From NCBI RefSeq assembly GCF_021608185.1, contig NZ_JAKIHN010000001.1, positions 248,001 through 312,000 of the forward strand: DNA of 64,000 nucleotides. Reading direction: 5' to 3'. Position 1 is the stretch's first letter. Every line of letters starts with the position of its first letter. A model generated the notes under the pieces. That model searched no databases. It was not told the DNA's origin and saw nothing but the letters and a program-made list of their open reading frames with translations. This document shows, piece by piece, positions 36,033-50,945 of the stretch. This stretch comes from Flavobacterium anseongense (lineage in GTDB: Bacteria; Bacteroidota; Bacteroidia; Flavobacteriales; Flavobacteriaceae). The position numbers were made by a program, and so were the translations under genes.

Positions 36033-36887
36033 TTATTCATCATTAGCAACTGCTGAGTTTTTATCGATACTCACTTTTAGCGTCGTAGCAACACCTTGCT
36101 CATTTACCATTGTCATATTTAAGGTATCCAGTTTAGCAAGGTTTCTGGAAACCAATCCATTGAACATATTATAAGAAATATTCATTTCTTTTAAGTTTCC
36201 TAATTTCTCTAAATCAAAAGGAACCTGACCATCCATTTTATTTTCAAATAAACTTAGCGTTTCCAATGAAGTTAGACTTGAAACTTCTTTTTCTAATTTA
36301 CCTGTAAGTTTATTACTGTTTAACAATAAAACTTTTAACGATTTTAATTGATAATAAGAAGCCGGAATTTGACCTTCAATTTCGTTGTTGAATAAAGAAA
36401 GTGTTTCCAAATTTGTTAAATTTCCAACAGCTACAGGCAATTGACCTGTTAGTCTGTTCATGTGCATTTCAATTGATTTTAATTGAGTAGCACTTCCTAA
36501 AGCTTCCGGTAAAGCTCCTGACACCTGATTGAATGCAATATTCAGTTTGGTAAGGTTTTTTAAATTCCCAATAGAGGCAGGCAATACACCTGTAATATTG
36601 TTTCTGAAAAGATTCAAAACTTGCAGTGATGTTAAATCGCCTATTTCATTTGGAAGTTCTCCGTTAAGGTTATTATTAACCAATTTAATTGCGACAACTT
36701 TATCATTTTGGATTTCTACACCATACCAGGTTGATACTGGTGATTTTAAATCCCATTTGTTAATCCATTGTGATCCTTTGGTTGCCTTGTTTAGTTTAAT
36801 TAAAGCATTTTTTTCGGTTGACGATATCTCTGCAAAAACTGATGCAGAAACAAAAAGTAACGCGACATAGGTAAAAATAGTTTTCAT
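36033..36887 (-). CDS. Secreted leucine-rich-repeat protein, plant-type repeats
   Basis: A 284-residue exported protein. The signal peptide ends near VFAE (residue 20). An LRRNT-like cap (ALIKLNKATKGSQWINKWDL ... WYGVEI) is followed by about eight repeats of 23-24 residues of the form LxxLxxLxLxxNxxxGxLPxxIGNLT (for example NLFRNNITGVLPASIGNLKN and SLFNNEIEGQIPASYYQLKS). This G-x-(I/L)-P consensus is the plant-specific LRR class, also found in Flavobacteria. There is no type IX C-terminal sorting domain. It probably binds protein at the cell surface or periplasm. Confidence 0.85.
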   Translation of the reverse strand: MKTIFTYVALLFVSASVFAEISSTEKNALIKLNKATKGSQWINKWDLKSPVSTWYGVEIQNDKVVAIKLVNNNLNGELPNEIGDLTSLQVLNLFRNNITGVLPASIGNLKNLTKLNIAFNQVSGALPEALGSATQLKSIEMHMNRLTGQLPVAVGNLTNLETLSLFNNEIEGQIPASYYQLKSLKVLLLNSNKLTGKLEKEVSSLTSLETLSLFENKMDGQVPFDLEKLGNLKEMNISYNMFNGLVSRNLAKLDTLNMTMVNEQGVATTLKVSIDKNSAVANDE

Positions 36888-37068
36888 AACGTTTTATGAT
36901 TTGAGGTTAAGACGAGGTAAAATTATAAGCATTATCGTTTAAAAACAAATAAAATCGACGAAATGCATTTATAACTTAATTTTTTATTAACTTATCTTAC
37001 AAAATCAAATAAAATTCCTATTAAAATTGAATACTTTGCCAAAAAAAATGGATTTAAGAAATATTTTT

Positions 37069-44882: not shown

Positions 44883-45797
44883 TTAGTAATTCCACATGTC
44901 AGATTCGAAACTACGAATCTTTTCTTTTACTCTTTCAGATTCCAAAAGCTGTGCCTGTGAATTGTCCTTCATGTATTGCTGAATTTCTCTATCACCATAA
45001 ACATTTTCTTCTTTGTAAATCTCGCCGTTAAATCTTCGGGAGTTTAACAAATGGTCAAACGTGATTGGCATTGCAGAATTCTTATCATTAAAGGCCTTCG
45101 ACTCATGCAGTATATCTCTTACTGTAGGGAAGTAAACCCAGAACAAATCAATTACATCGGCTTTTTCATTCCCGGCATCTCTTGCTTCAGGAGTAACCGG
45201 ACACAAAGCTAACAATCTGTATTTCAACTCACCTTGACGTTTGTCAAAATACCAATAACCTTTGATTTTGTAGCCTGAAATATAACTGGCGTCCAATTCT
45301 TTTTTATTGATATACTGTGGGTCTAAAACTTTAGCTCCACTTTTATAATCATCATAGTAGTTATTTATTTCATCTTTCCCCATATCGGTAGTATCGATAT
45401 AAGTAAATGAAGATTCCATATCCTTAAACGTTTTCTTAATATTGAAATAATCATCAGTATATACTTCTGTTATTTTACCACTCTTGATGTTTTTTACAAG
45501 TACATCGAAGAGTGATCTTCTTTCTTTACCAACGAAAGCCGTATCGATAGGATAATACAAAGGAAAATTAATTCTCTCATCAACGTCAATAAACTCCCAA
45601 ATGGTTTTACCCATTAAGACATCCCTGTCATGAACATAACCATAAGGTAATGGTTTGTCGTTGTCAGAAATTAACTGTGCAGGTGTTTTCTTTCCAATCT
45701 CATCTGGAGTTTTAGAATTCAACAAGTTTGCCTGAGCATAAGTTGAAGCACTCATTGCTACTGCAAAAATTACTGATAAAAGATTTTTAATTTTCAT
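44883..45797 (-). CDS. gldN: Gliding motility / type IX secretion protein GldN
   Basis: A 304-residue secreted protein with signal peptide ending STYAQ (residue 21). The body matches the GldN/PorN family in length, in its position after gldM and in blocks such as VLMGKTIWEFIDVDERINFPLYYP and LLALCPVTPEARDAG. GldN forms a periplasmic ring with the lipoprotein GldK at the outer membrane and is required for type IX secretion. It follows gldM by 47 bases. Confidence 0.93.
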   Translation of the reverse strand: MKIKNLLSVIFAVAMSASTYAQANLLNSKTPDEIGKKTPAQLISDNDKPLPYGYVHDRDVLMGKTIWEFIDVDERINFPLYYPIDTAFVGKERRSLFDVLVKNIKSGKITEVYTDDYFNIKKTFKDMESSFTYIDTTDMGKDEINNYYDDYKSGAKVLDPQYINKKELDASYISGYKIKGYWYFDKRQGELKYRLLALCPVTPEARDAGNEKADVIDLFWVYFPTVRDILHESKAFNDKNSAMPITFDHLLNSRRFNGEIYKEENVYGDREIQQYMKDNSQAQLLESERVKEKIRSFESDMWNY

Positions 45798-45844: not shown

Positions 45845-47395
45845 TTATTGTATTTCGTAAATAACCGGTGCAGCATCTTTAGGGATAATTCCTGAAGCTC
45901 CAACAATTTTTGTTTTAATATCAAAAATAGATATTTGGTCACCTTTTGATGCTCTTGCTAAAGCCGCTTTACATTTTCCATCAACTTTACTACCGTTAAC
46001 AATAACAGCTGCTTGTCCAGGAACTTTGAAACTAAAACGAGTTACTTCATATTTTAAATCATAAACGAAGTCTTGAAGCTCAGCAGTAATATTTGAAACC
46101 TCTAAACGAGATTTAGCTCCTTTTTGAACTCCTGTAACTCCACCAATTGCACCAGCCGGAGCAGGGATGTTTTTGATTCTAAATACTTTCTTATCTGATA
46201 CTTTAGATTTGTCCGGTAATTCACCAGTTACACTAACGGTAACTTCAGTTCCACTTCCAGGGCTAAGATTATATTGTCCAGGCTTAGCACCTTTTGTCAT
46301 ACCAGGAGCAGAAGCAGAAACTTTATTATCAGTAATACCGGCAAATGAAATAGTCATTGGGTTTGGTAAACCTCTGTACACTACGTTCATTTTATCAGCA
46401 GATATATTTGCTGAATTAGGTTTAGGTACTACTACATAGTTTCCTTTGATTGGTAAGCTTACAACTTTTCCTCCTTCGTCGAAGTTGAAAGAACCGGTAA
46501 TTTCATGTTCTCCAACTGCACCAGCACCAAAAGAGAAGTCTGCCTGACCCGCTTTAGCAGGAACACTGACTCCGTTTACGATAACTGATTTTGCAACCAA
46601 GTTCGGGTCAAATTTACCTAAGATAATTTTACCTTTTACGGCTTCTCCCTGAAAGAAAGCTGTTTTTTCAGGAACAACAATTGGTTGGTACGCTGTTAAT
46701 GAAGCAGCTGCCACAAGGTCTGATTGGAACATACCTGCAATAATATCGCTTTCAGTAGTTTTAATGTCAGCCTGTAATTGAGATAATTTTGTAATCGTTG
46801 CGATAAGTGGGAATCCTTTGAAGTTATAATCTAACCAATTCAAAGTAGCTCCAGCACTTTTAGATTTTACTGGTTCAGCAGCAAATCTTTTTTGGATTTT
46901 TTTCAATTCCGGCTCAGATATTGAGCTTCCTCCGATTTGTTTAACTTTCTCAACAAAATTCTTCATTCTATCAAGGAACTCTTGACCTGATTTTGACGGT
47001 TTATCACCTTCAAACCATTTCTCGTCAACTTTGTCTCCTTTATCCATAGCTTCGAAAGGTAAGTTCCCGTCTTCGTTTCTTGGATATTCTTTTGTAAACT
47101 CAGTTTTAATATCCTCTATATACGTGCTATATTCTTTACAAAGTGCTCTTATTTTTTCTACCTTTTCCTTTTTAGCACCAAATTGTAACGGCTGATCTTG
47201 AGCTTTTTGAGCTAACTGTTGGAATGATGAATCATTTCTAACATCAGCAATACCATTTGACTCAATAATTTTATTATTCAAGATTCCAAAAGCCGATAGT
47301 ACTTCTTTGGACATATTTAATGCTAACATTGCGATGAAAACCAGATACATCAGGTTAATCATCTTCTGTCTAGGGGTTAATTTTCCTCCTGCCAT
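45845..47395 (-). CDS. gldM: Type IX secretion motor protein GldM
   Basis: A 516-residue protein with a short cytosolic start and one membrane helix (MINLMYLVFIAMLALNMS, about residues 11-28), followed by a large periplasmic region of helical and beta domains that forms the motor shaft. The N-terminal block KLTPRQKMINLMYLVFIAMLALN is highly conserved in GldM/PorM. It works with GldL in the inner membrane to convert proton motive force into rotation for gliding and secretion. Confidence 0.95.
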   Translation of the reverse strand: MAGGKLTPRQKMINLMYLVFIAMLALNMSKEVLSAFGILNNKIIESNGIADVRNDSSFQQLAQKAQDQPLQFGAKKEKVEKIRALCKEYSTYIEDIKTEFTKEYPRNEDGNLPFEAMDKGDKVDEKWFEGDKPSKSGQEFLDRMKNFVEKVKQIGGSSISEPELKKIQKRFAAEPVKSKSAGATLNWLDYNFKGFPLIATITKLSQLQADIKTTESDIIAGMFQSDLVAAASLTAYQPIVVPEKTAFFQGEAVKGKIILGKFDPNLVAKSVIVNGVSVPAKAGQADFSFGAGAVGEHEITGSFNFDEGGKVVSLPIKGNYVVVPKPNSANISADKMNVVYRGLPNPMTISFAGITDNKVSASAPGMTKGAKPGQYNLSPGSGTEVTVSVTGELPDKSKVSDKKVFRIKNIPAPAGAIGGVTGVQKGAKSRLEVSNITAELQDFVYDLKYEVTRFSFKVPGQAAVIVNGSKVDGKCKAALARASKGDQISIFDIKTKIVGASGIIPKDAAPVIYEIQ

Positions 47396-47451: not shown

Positions 47452-48084
47452 TTATCCTTTGTTACTCATTGCAGAAAGCATTCCTCCATATACATTATTC
47501 AATGTAGAAAGATTTGAAGTAAGGCTTTGCATTTGATCTTTTAATTTTAAGTTGTTTTCAGCAACCTCATCGTTAATTTTTGCGTTTCTTTCGGCGCTTT
47601 GTAATTGAACTTGGTATAAACCATTCAAAGTTTCTAATTGAGAAGCTGCTTTAGTCATTTCTTCTGCATATTTTTTTGTTGATGCAACAGAATCGACTGT
47701 AGGAGAAATTGCTTTTGCTGCACCTTCGAAGTTTCTGATGCTAGCTCCTAAACTTTCCATTAATTGTCCATCAATTTTAGCTTCTTTCAACATATTGTCT
47801 AATTTTTGAGACAATAAACCTTGTGCTTCTTTTGGATCTTCTTTTTTACCTTTTTCTTTTGCTTCACCACCGGCTAATTCTGGATAAACTAATGACCAGT
47901 CTAATTCTTTATCTACTGGATCGAAAGCTGACAGACCAAAAATCAATGCCTCAGTTCCTAATCCTACGATAAGCATCAAACTTGCGCCTGGCCAGTGCAT
48001 CAATTTAAATAATGCTCCAATAATTACAACTGCAGCTCCCATCCCGTACGCGAAATTCATTGCTTTTTTGCTTAAAAATGCCAT
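47452..48084 (-). CDS. gldL: Type IX secretion motor protein GldL
   Basis: A 210-residue protein with two membrane helices (about 11-27 and 34-52) and a cytosolic coiled-coil tail. The first helix block MNFAYGMGAAVVIIGALFK and the acidic residue in the second helix (GLGTEALIFGL, Glu45) match the GldL/PorL family; the equivalent Glu49 in F. johnsoniae is essential for motor function. A Lys (27) ends the first helix. It lies between gldK and gldM as in all gliding loci. Confidence 0.95.
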   Translation of the reverse strand: MAFLSKKAMNFAYGMGAAVVIIGALFKLMHWPGASLMLIVGLGTEALIFGLSAFDPVDKELDWSLVYPELAGGEAKEKGKKEDPKEAQGLLSQKLDNMLKEAKIDGQLMESLGASIRNFEGAAKAISPTVDSVASTKKYAEEMTKAASQLETLNGLYQVQLQSAERNAKINDEVAENNLKLKDQMQSLTSNLSTLNNVYGGMLSAMSNKG

Positions 48085-48138: not shown

Positions 48139-49551
48139 TTACTTTTTAGGTGCAGCATTCTTGGTAACCTGAGTTCCCATATAATCCTGAACTGTACGGA
48201 AACCAATGTAGCTTCTGGCTGAATCTGCATATTCAAAATCTCTGGTTCCTACTTGCAGGAAGTAAGCAACGTCTTTCCATGAACCACCACGAACGGCTTT
48301 TCTCATGTTCTTCAAATCTGAAACGTTTGGATTTATTGAAGACACATATTCGTAAGCTGCAGCATCGTATGATGAATCTGTCCATTCAGCCACATTTCCT
48401 GACATATTGTACAAATTATATCCATTTGGCTCATATGATTTTGCTTCTACAGTATATAAAGCCTGATCAGCAGCATAATCCCCTCTATTAGGTTTGAAAT
48501 TAGCTAAGAAACAACCTCTGTCATTTTTAGCATAAGGTCCTCCCCATGGGAAAGTAGCTGATTCTAAACCACCTCTAGCAGCGTACTCCCATTCTGATTC
48601 TATTGGAAGACGGAAGGAATTTATTAAATCTTGTTTTTTCTTTTTTGATTTGATGTACGAATTTTTGTTTAAAGTTCTCCATGCACAAAATGCTTTTGCT
48701 TGTTTCCAGCTAACACCAACTACAGGATATTCGCCATACGCTTGATGCCAAAAATAATCATTGTGCATAGGCTCATTGTAGGAATAAGCAAAATCTTTTA
48801 TCCAAACTGTAGTGTCAGGATAAACAAGTTGCTGTTCAGTTCTGATAAAATCACTTCTCTTGCCTTTTTTAGCTTTTGCAGCTGCTTGGATATCCATCCA
48901 TGAGTATCTGAATTTTAATTTACGAACATCGATTGTTCTTAAACCATTAAAAGATTCTGCCATTGGCAAATACATAGTATCCATAACTTCTGTGTAATAT
49001 TCGTCTGGATATTTTTTTGTGTCTTTTATAAGCTTGATTTTTTTATTTAATCTTCTTCCTGCATAAGGATCATCATCAGTTCCTACACTATAATAATTCT
49101 CATACATATATTTATCATAAGGAGTCATTTTAGCGGGATCAGTATCATTAAAAGCAAAATCACCAATGCTTCCGCCTTTACCGCCGCCTCCTTTACCACC
49201 TTTACCGGTAGAAGTTTGTCCAACTTCATCAGCAAGAATAGCTAAACGCACTCTTATCGTAGAATCTTTTACCCATTCTACAAACTGACGGTATTCACTA
49301 TTTGTGATTTCGGTTTCATCCATATAGAATGATCTAACGGTAACCGTTTTAGTAGGTGAATCTTGTACATTAGCTAGGTCATCATCAGATTTTCCCATAA
49401 TGTATGATCCACCAGGGATTAAAGTCATTCCAAATGGTTTTTCGGGATGCCATTTCTTTCCTTTAACTCCTACCAATTCACCTTTATCACTTGATCCACC
49501 ACAACTGGTTAATAAAGCTAAAAATGACGCAAATGTTATGAACTTCTTCAT
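48139..49551 (-). CDS. gldK: Type IX secretion lipoprotein GldK
   Basis: A 470-residue lipoprotein (lipobox LLTSCGG, Cys17) of the sulfatase-modifying-factor (FGE) fold, homologous to GldK/PorK. Blocks are MTLIPGGSYIMGKSDDDL, FYMDETEITNSEYRQFVEW, PVVGVSWKQAKAFCAWR, LPIESEWEYAARGG and YNMSGNVAEWTDS, and the C-terminus ends AVRGGSW...YIGFR. A Gly/Lys-rich insert (about 115-128) is unusual but occurs in relatives. With GldN it builds the outer membrane-associated ring of the type IX system. First gene of the gldKLMN operon. Confidence 0.95.
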   Translation of the reverse strand: MKKFITFASFLALLTSCGGSSDKGELVGVKGKKWHPEKPFGMTLIPGGSYIMGKSDDDLANVQDSPTKTVTVRSFYMDETEITNSEYRQFVEWVKDSTIRVRLAILADEVGQTSTGKGGKGGGGKGGSIGDFAFNDTDPAKMTPYDKYMYENYYSVGTDDDPYAGRRLNKKIKLIKDTKKYPDEYYTEVMDTMYLPMAESFNGLRTIDVRKLKFRYSWMDIQAAAKAKKGKRSDFIRTEQQLVYPDTTVWIKDFAYSYNEPMHNDYFWHQAYGEYPVVGVSWKQAKAFCAWRTLNKNSYIKSKKKKQDLINSFRLPIESEWEYAARGGLESATFPWGGPYAKNDRGCFLANFKPNRGDYAADQALYTVEAKSYEPNGYNLYNMSGNVAEWTDSSYDAAAYEYVSSINPNVSDLKNMRKAVRGGSWKDVAYFLQVGTRDFEYADSARSYIGFRTVQDYMGTQVTKNAAPKK

Positions 49552-49790
49552 ATGTATATATTGGGGTTATTTTGAATATTATTTTAAGGGCGTAAACCTA
49601 TTTATTATTTTTCAAAAAAGCAATTAATTAATATTAAATTTCTTCAGACAATTTTCCACAATAACAATTCACATTCCAAAAATAGAATTAATCTTGTAAT
49701 AAAAAAAATGTTTTATCGATAAAACGCATTTTTTATCGATAAAATGCTGTTTTTTCTAATTTTTGTAATCTTATTTTTATTTTTTTGTTG
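49552..49790. other. Intergenic region upstream of gldK
   Basis: The 239 bases between the arginase-fold gene and gldK contain two perfect TTTTATCGATAAAA palindromes and are otherwise AT-rich. No perfect TAnnTTTG box is seen for gldK; the nearest is TAGGTTTA about 50 bases before the start. Confidence 0.6.
49711..49744. promoter_or_regulatory. Paired perfect palindromes TTTTATCGATAAAA
   Basis: Two identical 14-bp palindromes at 49711-49724 and 49731-49744, centre to centre 20 bp. They lie about 160-190 bases upstream of gldK and 47 bases after the stop of the arginase-fold gene. On the minus strand the second hairpin is followed by eight T, so a tandem terminator is an alternative. Confidence 0.6.
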
Positions 49791-50945
49791 TTATAATGAA
49801 TTCTTTCGCTGTGCTTTCCACCACCTTTCAGGTATTTCATTGTTACAAGCTGCTAAATATTCGTCATGCGAACAAGATAATAACGTGTTTTTTTTAAGTT
49901 TATTGTGTTGTCCTGCAAAAAAATTAATTTCTATCCACCATCTCCCTGTTTTATTGCTCTTATAGAACACTAATTCTTCGTTTTCTAATGGCACAATATA
50001 CTTTAAATAATTTTCTTTTGTCCCAAATGGGTATTCATTTGAACGGTAATTAACCCCTTCTATAAAATACCATAGTATCTGCGCAATTAGTACTGAACCT
50101 TCTTTTTTATTATTATAATTAAAAATTCCTAAAGAACTTACTTTATCACTGATTCCAGCATATCTTGACAGACTACAAATTTCTTTTCCATCAAATCCAT
50201 TTGGAACAAAAGTAGCAAAATTTCCTGAATATGAAGACTTTACAGCATTTAAATCTATACTAACAATATCCGCATCGCGTAATGTTGGCTCTGACAATTC
50301 AATATTATTTGAAATTTCACCTAATCTGTATGCATCAAAAAATAATTTTTCAATCAAATCAATCTCTTCCTGCGAATTATAATAAGTTTGATATCCTATA
50401 TTGGAATAATTAAAAAGGTTGTTAGGCTCATCCAAAATTATTTTAGACAAATAAGAGTTGGCTGTTATTCCATCTTCCTGTTTGCCAAAATCAAACCTAC
50501 TGTCTATTGAAACCAAATTGACCATCTGTTCCTGCTTATCATATGCTCTGTATAACGGATAAGTCAAATCCTGCGAACCGCCAATAACAATTGGAATAAT
50601 TCCTTTTCGAATTAATTTAGCGGCTACTTTTTGTAAAGCAAAAAAAGTATCTTCTAAAGAATTCCCGGGAATTATATCTCCCAAATCAGCTATTGAGCTT
50701 TGCCAGTTTCCCGGAAACAAACCATATAATTCTCTTCGGACAGCATCTAGATTTACTTCGTCATCTACGAAATTAATAGCGCCACGGTTTTCTAAAACAC
50801 CTATGATGGCAATTTTTATTTTGTCGATATCCGGAAAGTCTTTATCTGTATGAAATGCAACTTTACTTCCCAAATGTTGTGATGACAATCCGTTTATGAA
50901 TTGAATAATTTCGTTATCAACAGGTGACAGAAAATCAAATTCCAT
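49791..50945 (-). CDS. Arginase-fold (formimidoylglutamase-like) protein with degraded metal sites
   Basis: A 384-residue protein of the ureohydrolase fold. The three metal-binding blocks are recognisable but altered: GGSHD is IGGSQDLTYP (122-126, His replaced by Gln), DAHxDxR is VSIDSRFDFG (146-154), and SxDxDxxDP is VSIDLNAVKS (about 230-239). A dinuclear Mn site is therefore unlikely, so arginase or formimidoylglutamase activity is doubtful. Such genes sit between topA and gldK in Flavobacterium, and a structural or regulatory role is possible. It follows topA by 3 bases. Confidence 0.78.
   Translation of the reverse strand: MEFDFLSPVDNEIIQFINGLSSQHLGSKVAFHTDKDFPDIDKIKIAIIGVLENRGAINFVDDEVNLDAVRRELYGLFPGNWQSSIADLGDIIPGNSLEDTFFALQKVAAKLIRKGIIPIVIGGSQDLTYPLYRAYDKQEQMVNLVSIDSRFDFGKQEDGITANSYLSKIILDEPNNLFNYSNIGYQTYYNSQEEIDLIEKLFFDAYRLGEISNNIELSEPTLRDADIVSIDLNAVKSSYSGNFATFVPNGFDGKEICSLSRYAGISDKVSSLGIFNYNNKKEGSVLIAQILWYFIEGVNYRSNEYPFGTKENYLKYIVPLENEELVFYKSNKTGRWWIEINFFAGQHNKLKKNTLLSCSHDEYLAACNNEIPERWWKAQRKNSL

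Follow-up and report, generated by a model that had tools for sequence, protein, structure and literature searches.

The window, as we call the whole stretch of 64,000 nucleotides of the Flavobacterium anseongense genome that was analysed, carries on its minus strand a type I topoisomerase gene, an arginase-family gene and then gldK, gldL, gldM and gldN, an operon for gliding and type IX secretion (T9SS). The name gldK is one we assume from gene position, the Pfam match there being FGE-sulfatase. Between the stop of the arginase-family gene and the ATG of gldK (49551, minus strand) lie two identical perfect 14-bp palindromes, TTTTATCGATAAAA, 20 bp apart from start to start. The first-pass annotation had described these two dyads (49711-49724 and 49731-49744), their position ahead of the gliding/T9SS operon and a run of eight T on the minus strand (49708-49701, following the gldK-proximal copy with CA between), and all of this holds. 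The features of the region, with half-sites, T tract and distal promoter box assigned by their sequence, are:

49791..50945, minus strand: arginase-family gene (Pfam Arginase), upstream, its stop 46 bp from the distal palindrome
49735..49747, minus strand: distal half-site GCATTTTATCGAT, direct repeat 1, oriented to gldK, the unit kept in relatives
49731..49744, no strand: second palindrome, sharing bases with the distal half-site
49715..49727, minus strand: proximal half-site GCGTTTTATCGAT, direct repeat 2, at 20 bp from its distal counterpart
49711..49724, no strand: first palindrome, sharing bases with the proximal half-site
49701..49708, minus strand: T8 tract between half-site and promoter box
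49677..49684, minus strand: −7 box TATTTTTG of the distal promoter (TAnnTTTG type)
49593..49623, minus strand: proximal promoter-like element TTG-N20-TAGGTTTA, close to gldK (compared by eye)
48139..49551, minus strand: gldK, first gene of the gldKLMN T9SS/gliding operon (Pfam FGE-sulfatase)
47452..48084, minus strand: gldL (Pfam GldL_N)
45845..47395, minus strand: gldM (Pfam GldM domains)
44883..45797, minus strand: gldN (Pfam GldN)

Eight places in the window match the palindrome with at most two mismatches, against a mean of 2.25 in shuffled sequence, and none of 100 shuffles reached eight. The whole genome holds three exact copies and none of the pattern read backwards; the third copy, in our reading, lies within a coding frame.

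The conserved unit is an asymmetric direct repeat

We collected the region upstream of gldK from 118 of the 121 genomes of the genus (G034 has no full gldK, and G063 and G109 were left out; region L009 spans 74 nt only). A gldK site was called where at least six of the eight letters of the unit TTTATCGA were present with a TAnnTTTG box some 30 nt away. By this rule 50 of 117 genomes carry a site, a lower figure, as at least two further regions (L015, L022) carry units by eye without a TAnnTTTG box, and nearly half of the 50 form one close clade. The proximal copy stands exactly 30 nt from the box in 46 of the 50, and the sequence between unit and box varies among groups of relatives. The other 67 genomes have no site by the rule, and 52 of these carry the LytTR gene described below. 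In two draft genomes (L019, L026) the part of gldK that was matched is listed as containing one in-frame stop.

At least five of the eight letters are present in 56 regions, and 48 of these have a second copy upstream, 20 bp (16 regions) or 21 bp (32 regions) away, compared with 15 to 28 of 56 for control windows of equal size at offsets of 30 to 96 bp. The conserved unit, G(C/T)nTTTTATCGAT, is asymmetric, directly repeated at 20 or 21 bp and oriented to gldK. In 32 of the 56 rows, picked for diversity, a G stands at position −9 from the CG in 28 distal and 21 proximal sites, and the mirror position +10 is T in 16 distal and 28 proximal ones; both copies retain this G, the T-rich positions and the CG, while the mirror half is not retained. 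Because the G at −9 is kept and its mirror at +10 is not, what the two copies repeat, in direct orientation, is an asymmetric unit, and the perfect dyads of the window are, as judged from these alignments, one version of it. The earlier idea of a regulator-binding element in two copies about two helical turns apart thus survives, whereas the dyad as recognition unit does not, and the conservation upstream of gldK that had been proposed as a check is found for the direct repeat, in the 50 genomes above, and not for the palindrome.

This asymmetry bears on the binder favoured by the first-pass annotation, a dimeric regulator of another family, of the helix-turn-helix (HTH) type, on each palindrome. 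Both window copies are perfect dyads and several relatives have a near-perfect proximal dyad, as that proposal would have it. However, the conserved unit is not symmetric, and L018 (TTTTATCGATGATT) and other targets in the F. anseongense genome lose the dyad and keep the left half, the G at or near −9 and the 20/21-bp period. We consider an HTH dimer very unlikely. As a candidate palindromic HTH operator the element was rejected, its conservation being asymmetric, with G at −9 and no conserved C at +10 in either copy. Tandem LytTR monomers fit better than dimers on palindromes because the copies are direct asymmetric repeats.

The two copies pair no better than shuffled columns

A second proposal is that the two copies form an intrinsic terminator of the arginase-family gene, pairing with each other in the transcript as one 14-bp hairpin with the loop AAUGCG, followed by CA and U8. 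The minus-strand RNA has a fold of −14.4 kcal/mol (z = −4.67) with the T8 tract directly after hairpin and CA, although any pair of identical palindromes would give such a fold. Across 17 aligned sites (11 from gldK, 6 others) the true register pairs in 67.2% of cells, against 28.6 to 46.2% when slid by one to three columns, an outcome that is inevitable for two self-complementary copies; shuffles pair in 65.7%, with 91 of 500 as high. The corresponding count for the covariation score is 57 of 500 shuffles, and individual pairs fail in as many as 12 of the 17 rows. Four relatives (L010, L018, L020, L023) retain element and promoter and have no T tract, and the element recurs in divergent intergenic regions, ahead of promoter boxes and unrelated genes, away from gene ends.

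The stem holds two G-C pairs only; the first-pass annotation had remarked that they are few. The palindromes did not appear in our terminator scan, which demands three G-C pairs and could not have listed this stem. Compared with an intrinsic terminator in the usual sense, a G-C-rich hairpin with a U run and conserved pairing, the element has no covariation beyond shuffles and was rejected as one. The tandem terminators offered earlier as an alternative thus find no support, and we regard a terminator as extremely doubtful.

The repeat recurs ahead of genes for exported proteins

A pattern search of the F. anseongense genome gave 21 matches, both strands counted, versus 6 for the reversed pattern. 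We built a sequence-only model, R1, from 17 sites of 20-bp spacing (11 from gldK and six others from the F. anseongense genome), a first alignment having mixed 20- and 21-bp rows; R1 is biased to the 20-bp spacing. At E ≤ 0.01 it returned 150 matches, 15 in F. anseongense and 135 in 14 relatives, of which at most 14 were training rows and at least two places were counted on both strands. The reversed-sequence control model R2 returned one match in the same 15 genomes.

In F. anseongense, 12 of the 15 sites stand ahead of gldK or a gene for an exported protein, one of the twelve oriented away; the test for export is crude and weak, since 23 of 52 window ORFs pass it as well. It was applied to 12 loci of this genome, of which 10 passed; gldK passes, and one giant protein was judged by eye. 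Another site lies between rpsF and a LytTR response-regulator gene, and another ahead of a protein without an export signal. Types A, B and C of the T9SS sorting domain are each represented by one target, all three over the curated cut-off, in a genome with 91 type A matches (89 over the cut-off) and 21 of type B (20 over).

The window itself holds a second operator copy, absent from the first-pass annotation, which precedes the gene of an exported leucine-rich-repeat (LRR) protein:

36932..36969, minus strand: second operator copy (GCATTTCGTCGAT / GTTTTTAAACGAT), from model R1 (E = 2.7e-6) and the letters themselves
36036..36887, minus strand: exported leucine-rich-repeat protein, predicted regulon member

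Sites upstream of similar LRR proteins occur also in G013, G119 and G120. Other recurring targets are a choice-of-anchor L type B cargo gene that diverges from what we take to be argS, a CAP-domain lipoprotein, and a giant exported protein whose gene diverges from that of a histidine phosphatase that we assume to be SixA-like. In G119 and G120 we followed 18 of the 22 matches, excluding gldK and LytTR sites, and 17 had a same-direction ORF within 420 nt. Nine of these ORFs were searched against NCBIfam: four exceeded a T9SS cut-off, one (type C) fell below it, and one is a PAS histidine kinase. In G120 the gene of a PAS-domain histidine kinase (L428:7330-8847, minus strand) lies 82 nt downstream of an operator copy, and in L286 a protein with a similar start adjoins a site. 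A kinase of this kind, preceded by an operator copy, could act as the system's sensor.

Scanning public genomes for the exact pattern gave at least 118 stretches, with 80 loci among the matches listed, so that the following are shares of that list and not frequencies. By record title, 47 of the 80 listed loci are Flavobacteriia (44 of them intergenic by an ORF rule), 10 are other or unplaced Bacteroidetes (8 intergenic) and 23 are others (16 intergenic). Six of the 12 coding loci listed (L259, L264, L298, L307, L311, L317) share a single coding context and are, in our reading, chance matches. Two listed loci lie ahead of gldK (L257, L263), and several flank the SixA-like phosphatase gene. The operator stands beside this phosphatase gene across the family (L255, L267, L271, L282, L283, L314, L329, L330, and L185 in F. 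anseongense), with a large exported protein on the opposite side in several cases.

Promoter boxes are phased with the repeat

At the locus itself, the CG of the proximal half-site begins 34 nt from the −7 box, which is the distance most often seen among relatives. We examined this geometry in 139 loci, 87 from R1 and 52 intergenic Bacteroidetes loci among the listed pattern matches, of which 118 were non-redundant. Most of the 118 sites have no TAnnTTTG box within 47 nt; 33 such boxes lie 3–47 nt downstream of the proximal CG, against 0 to 4 in eight shifted windows of equal size. Distances from CG to box are 7, 11–13 (8 boxes), 15, 21–24 (10), 31–32 (3), 34 (9) and 35, clustering at 12–13, 21–24 and 34 nt, a period of 10.5–11 or about one helical turn. 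None of 20,000 uniform draws was as phased, and the same is true with the 34s removed; an earlier, hand-picked set (13 of 15 F. anseongense sites and 34 of 57 Bacteroidetes loci before deduplication) had the same phasing. A protein contacting RNA polymerase from one face of the DNA would give such a pattern.

Relatives that lack the element (e.g. L024, L028, L030-L033) have a proximal promoter resembling TTG-N20-TAGGTTTA in common, by eye, with those that carry it. As this element is present whether or not the operator is, gldK may be served by two promoters.

A LytTR regulator beside rpsF is the candidate binder

The regulator gene next to one of the F. anseongense sites is:

L177:2414-3106: LytTR response regulator (Response_reg and LytTR domains, called on a longer frame from 2351), beside and divergent from rpsF

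Among named NCBIfam models the protein matches BtsR best, with a score under the cut-off of that model, and its best structure matches cover the receiver domain; ComE (4cbv), which we take to be a LytTR protein, matches weakly. We scored the rpsF-LytTR intergenic region for the repeat in the 30 genomes whose LytTR protein is most similar. In 24 of them, F. anseongense included, the region outscores its own shuffles, although three of these (L213, L215, L219) have by eye a single or displaced repeat; six genomes have no repeat there. The F. anseongense intergenic region (L177:2280-2354, minus strand) holds by eye three repeats oriented to rpsF, the gene of ribosomal protein S6, and the rpsF promoter may be under shared control by the operator. 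An operator copy beside the regulator's own gene suggests autoregulation.

The genomes searched with R1, 69 of the 121, were a non-random selection by LytTR and gldK-site state. At least one site was found in 44 of 51 examined genomes with an ortholog of the LytTR gene versus none of 15 without (Fisher p = 6e-10, uncorrected for kinship); the remaining seven of the 51 have no site at E ≤ 0.01. Three incomplete drafts, G037, G069 and G003 (89, 76 and 89% complete), have 7, 5 and 2 sites, retain the gldK site and yielded no LytTR ortholog; counted as ortholog-less, they make the split 44 of 51 versus 3 of 18. We read these cases as assembly incompleteness, though they count against the association. 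On a quick tree of the arginase protein, ten of the 15 ortholog-less genomes fall in one clade and the other five in about four places, and a test of LytTR presence against the gldK site with independent pairs, of which there were only five, gave no association.

These data also weigh on the possibility that the tandem activator operator is as described and is bound by another LytTR paralog or another regulator. F. anseongense has five LytTR genes, four besides the rpsF-linked one, the three drafts have sites with the rpsF-linked gene undetected, and the G120 site ahead of the PAS histidine kinase means that other signalling genes may be in the regulon. Against this, the repeat adjoins the rpsF-linked gene in the 24 of 30 genomes by the shuffle test, and sites are absent from all 15 ortholog-less genomes, eight of which carry more distant LytTR-type matches (E ≤ 1e-30). 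We consider a different regulator unlikely.

Proposed mechanism

Our preferred reading, which we hold to be likely, is a LytTR-type operator occupied by tandem monomers, most likely of the rpsF-linked LytTR protein, that activates gldKLMN and genes for exported proteins including T9SS cargo. Its anatomy makes the element a well-supported candidate operator of a LytTR-type activator and the rpsF-linked protein is its likely binder, while binding, activation rather than repression, phosphorylation and a signal are what we infer. The two asymmetric half-sites G(C/T)nTTTTATCGAT, 20 bp apart on one DNA face, would bind two LytTR monomers in tandem. Positioned just upstream of the −33/−7 region of the TAnnTTTG promoter, the regulator would activate gldKLMN, and from operators at distances phased by about one helical turn it would activate genes for T9SS cargo and other exported proteins. 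The repeats are probably the landing site of a protein that switches on both the surface-protein export machine and exported proteins.

A broader proposal, which we would put at even chances, is that one LytTR regulator across much of the Flavobacteriaceae is a master activator coordinating the T9SS motor operon and exported cargo through a single phased operator of direct repeats, with a YpdB-like half-site and a PAS kinase as hinted sensor. A LytTR site is a known kind of site; the regulon is new as far as literature searches show. Among the papers that those searches listed there was no earlier description of operator or regulon, and a search for the unit's own letters gave no flavobacterial paper by title. 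With a precise operator, a candidate regulator and a recurring target list, the joint control of T9SS machine and cargo genes becomes directly testable in a tractable laboratory gliding strain.

Comparison with known systems

Promoters of the ECF type carry AAC and CGT boxes, and the gldK region carries boxes of the TAnnTTTG type. In flavobacteria the joint switching of T9SS machine and cargo is poorly known, the published routes that our searches turned up being PorX/SigP in P. gingivalis and ECF-like promoters in F. psychrophilum. In P. gingivalis, PorX/PorY and SigP provide dedicated control of T9SS genes (PMC4800418, PMC8050853); control there runs through PorX and an ECF sigma factor, whereas here direct repeats stand at a TAnnTTTG promoter. 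Within Flavobacterium, F. psychrophilum offers a different route to T9SS genes, through SM6 (sigma-ECF-like) promoters at gldN and porU whose −10 region has a CGT box (PMC9723704); the terms 'gldK' and 'direct repeat' are absent from the main text of that study. Because its T9SS core genes are described as highly expressed in all samples (PMC9723704), there may be room for weak regulation only.

LytTR sites are described as two repeats, direct or inverted, of 9–11 nt with 11–13 nt between and no common consensus (PMC4847170). The core TTTATCGAT recurs in the window with 11 nt between, and the period is 20 or 21 in 48 of 56 relatives. LytTR sites lie just upstream of the −35/−33 region; here the −7 box is 30 nt away in 46 of 50 genomes and 33 phased boxes occur at the 118 sites. 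Autoregulated LytTR systems have a site at their own gene, as does the L177 regulator, the repeat there outscoring shuffles in 24 of 30 genomes. The S. mutans systems HdrRM and BrsRM autoregulate through direct repeats just upstream of −35 (PMC6193735), and resemble the present case in these repeats, in the 11–13 bp between them, in their place upstream of −35 and in autoregulation. They differ in pairing a LytTR regulator with a membrane inhibitor, whereas here a receiver-domain regulator is divergent from rpsF.

In letters the closest site is that of YpdB, a LytTR regulator of E. coli whose monomers reportedly bind direct repeats of GGCATTTCAT (PMC4847170). As at the YpdB operator of yhjX, asymmetric direct repeats stand about two turns apart upstream of a promoter, and the unit here, tGCATTT(T/C)ATCGAT, is near YpdB's, the common part being (t)GCATTT(T/C)AT; a protein with receiver and LytTR domains is a further shared feature. 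Unlike YpdB's, it runs on into CGAT and has many predicted targets, versus the one reported for YpdB, in a different phylum and with a TAnnTTTG promoter type. As LytTR sites lack a common consensus (PMC4847170), the likeness in letters may be chance; if it is not, the flavobacterial unit would enlarge the small set of known LytTR codes.
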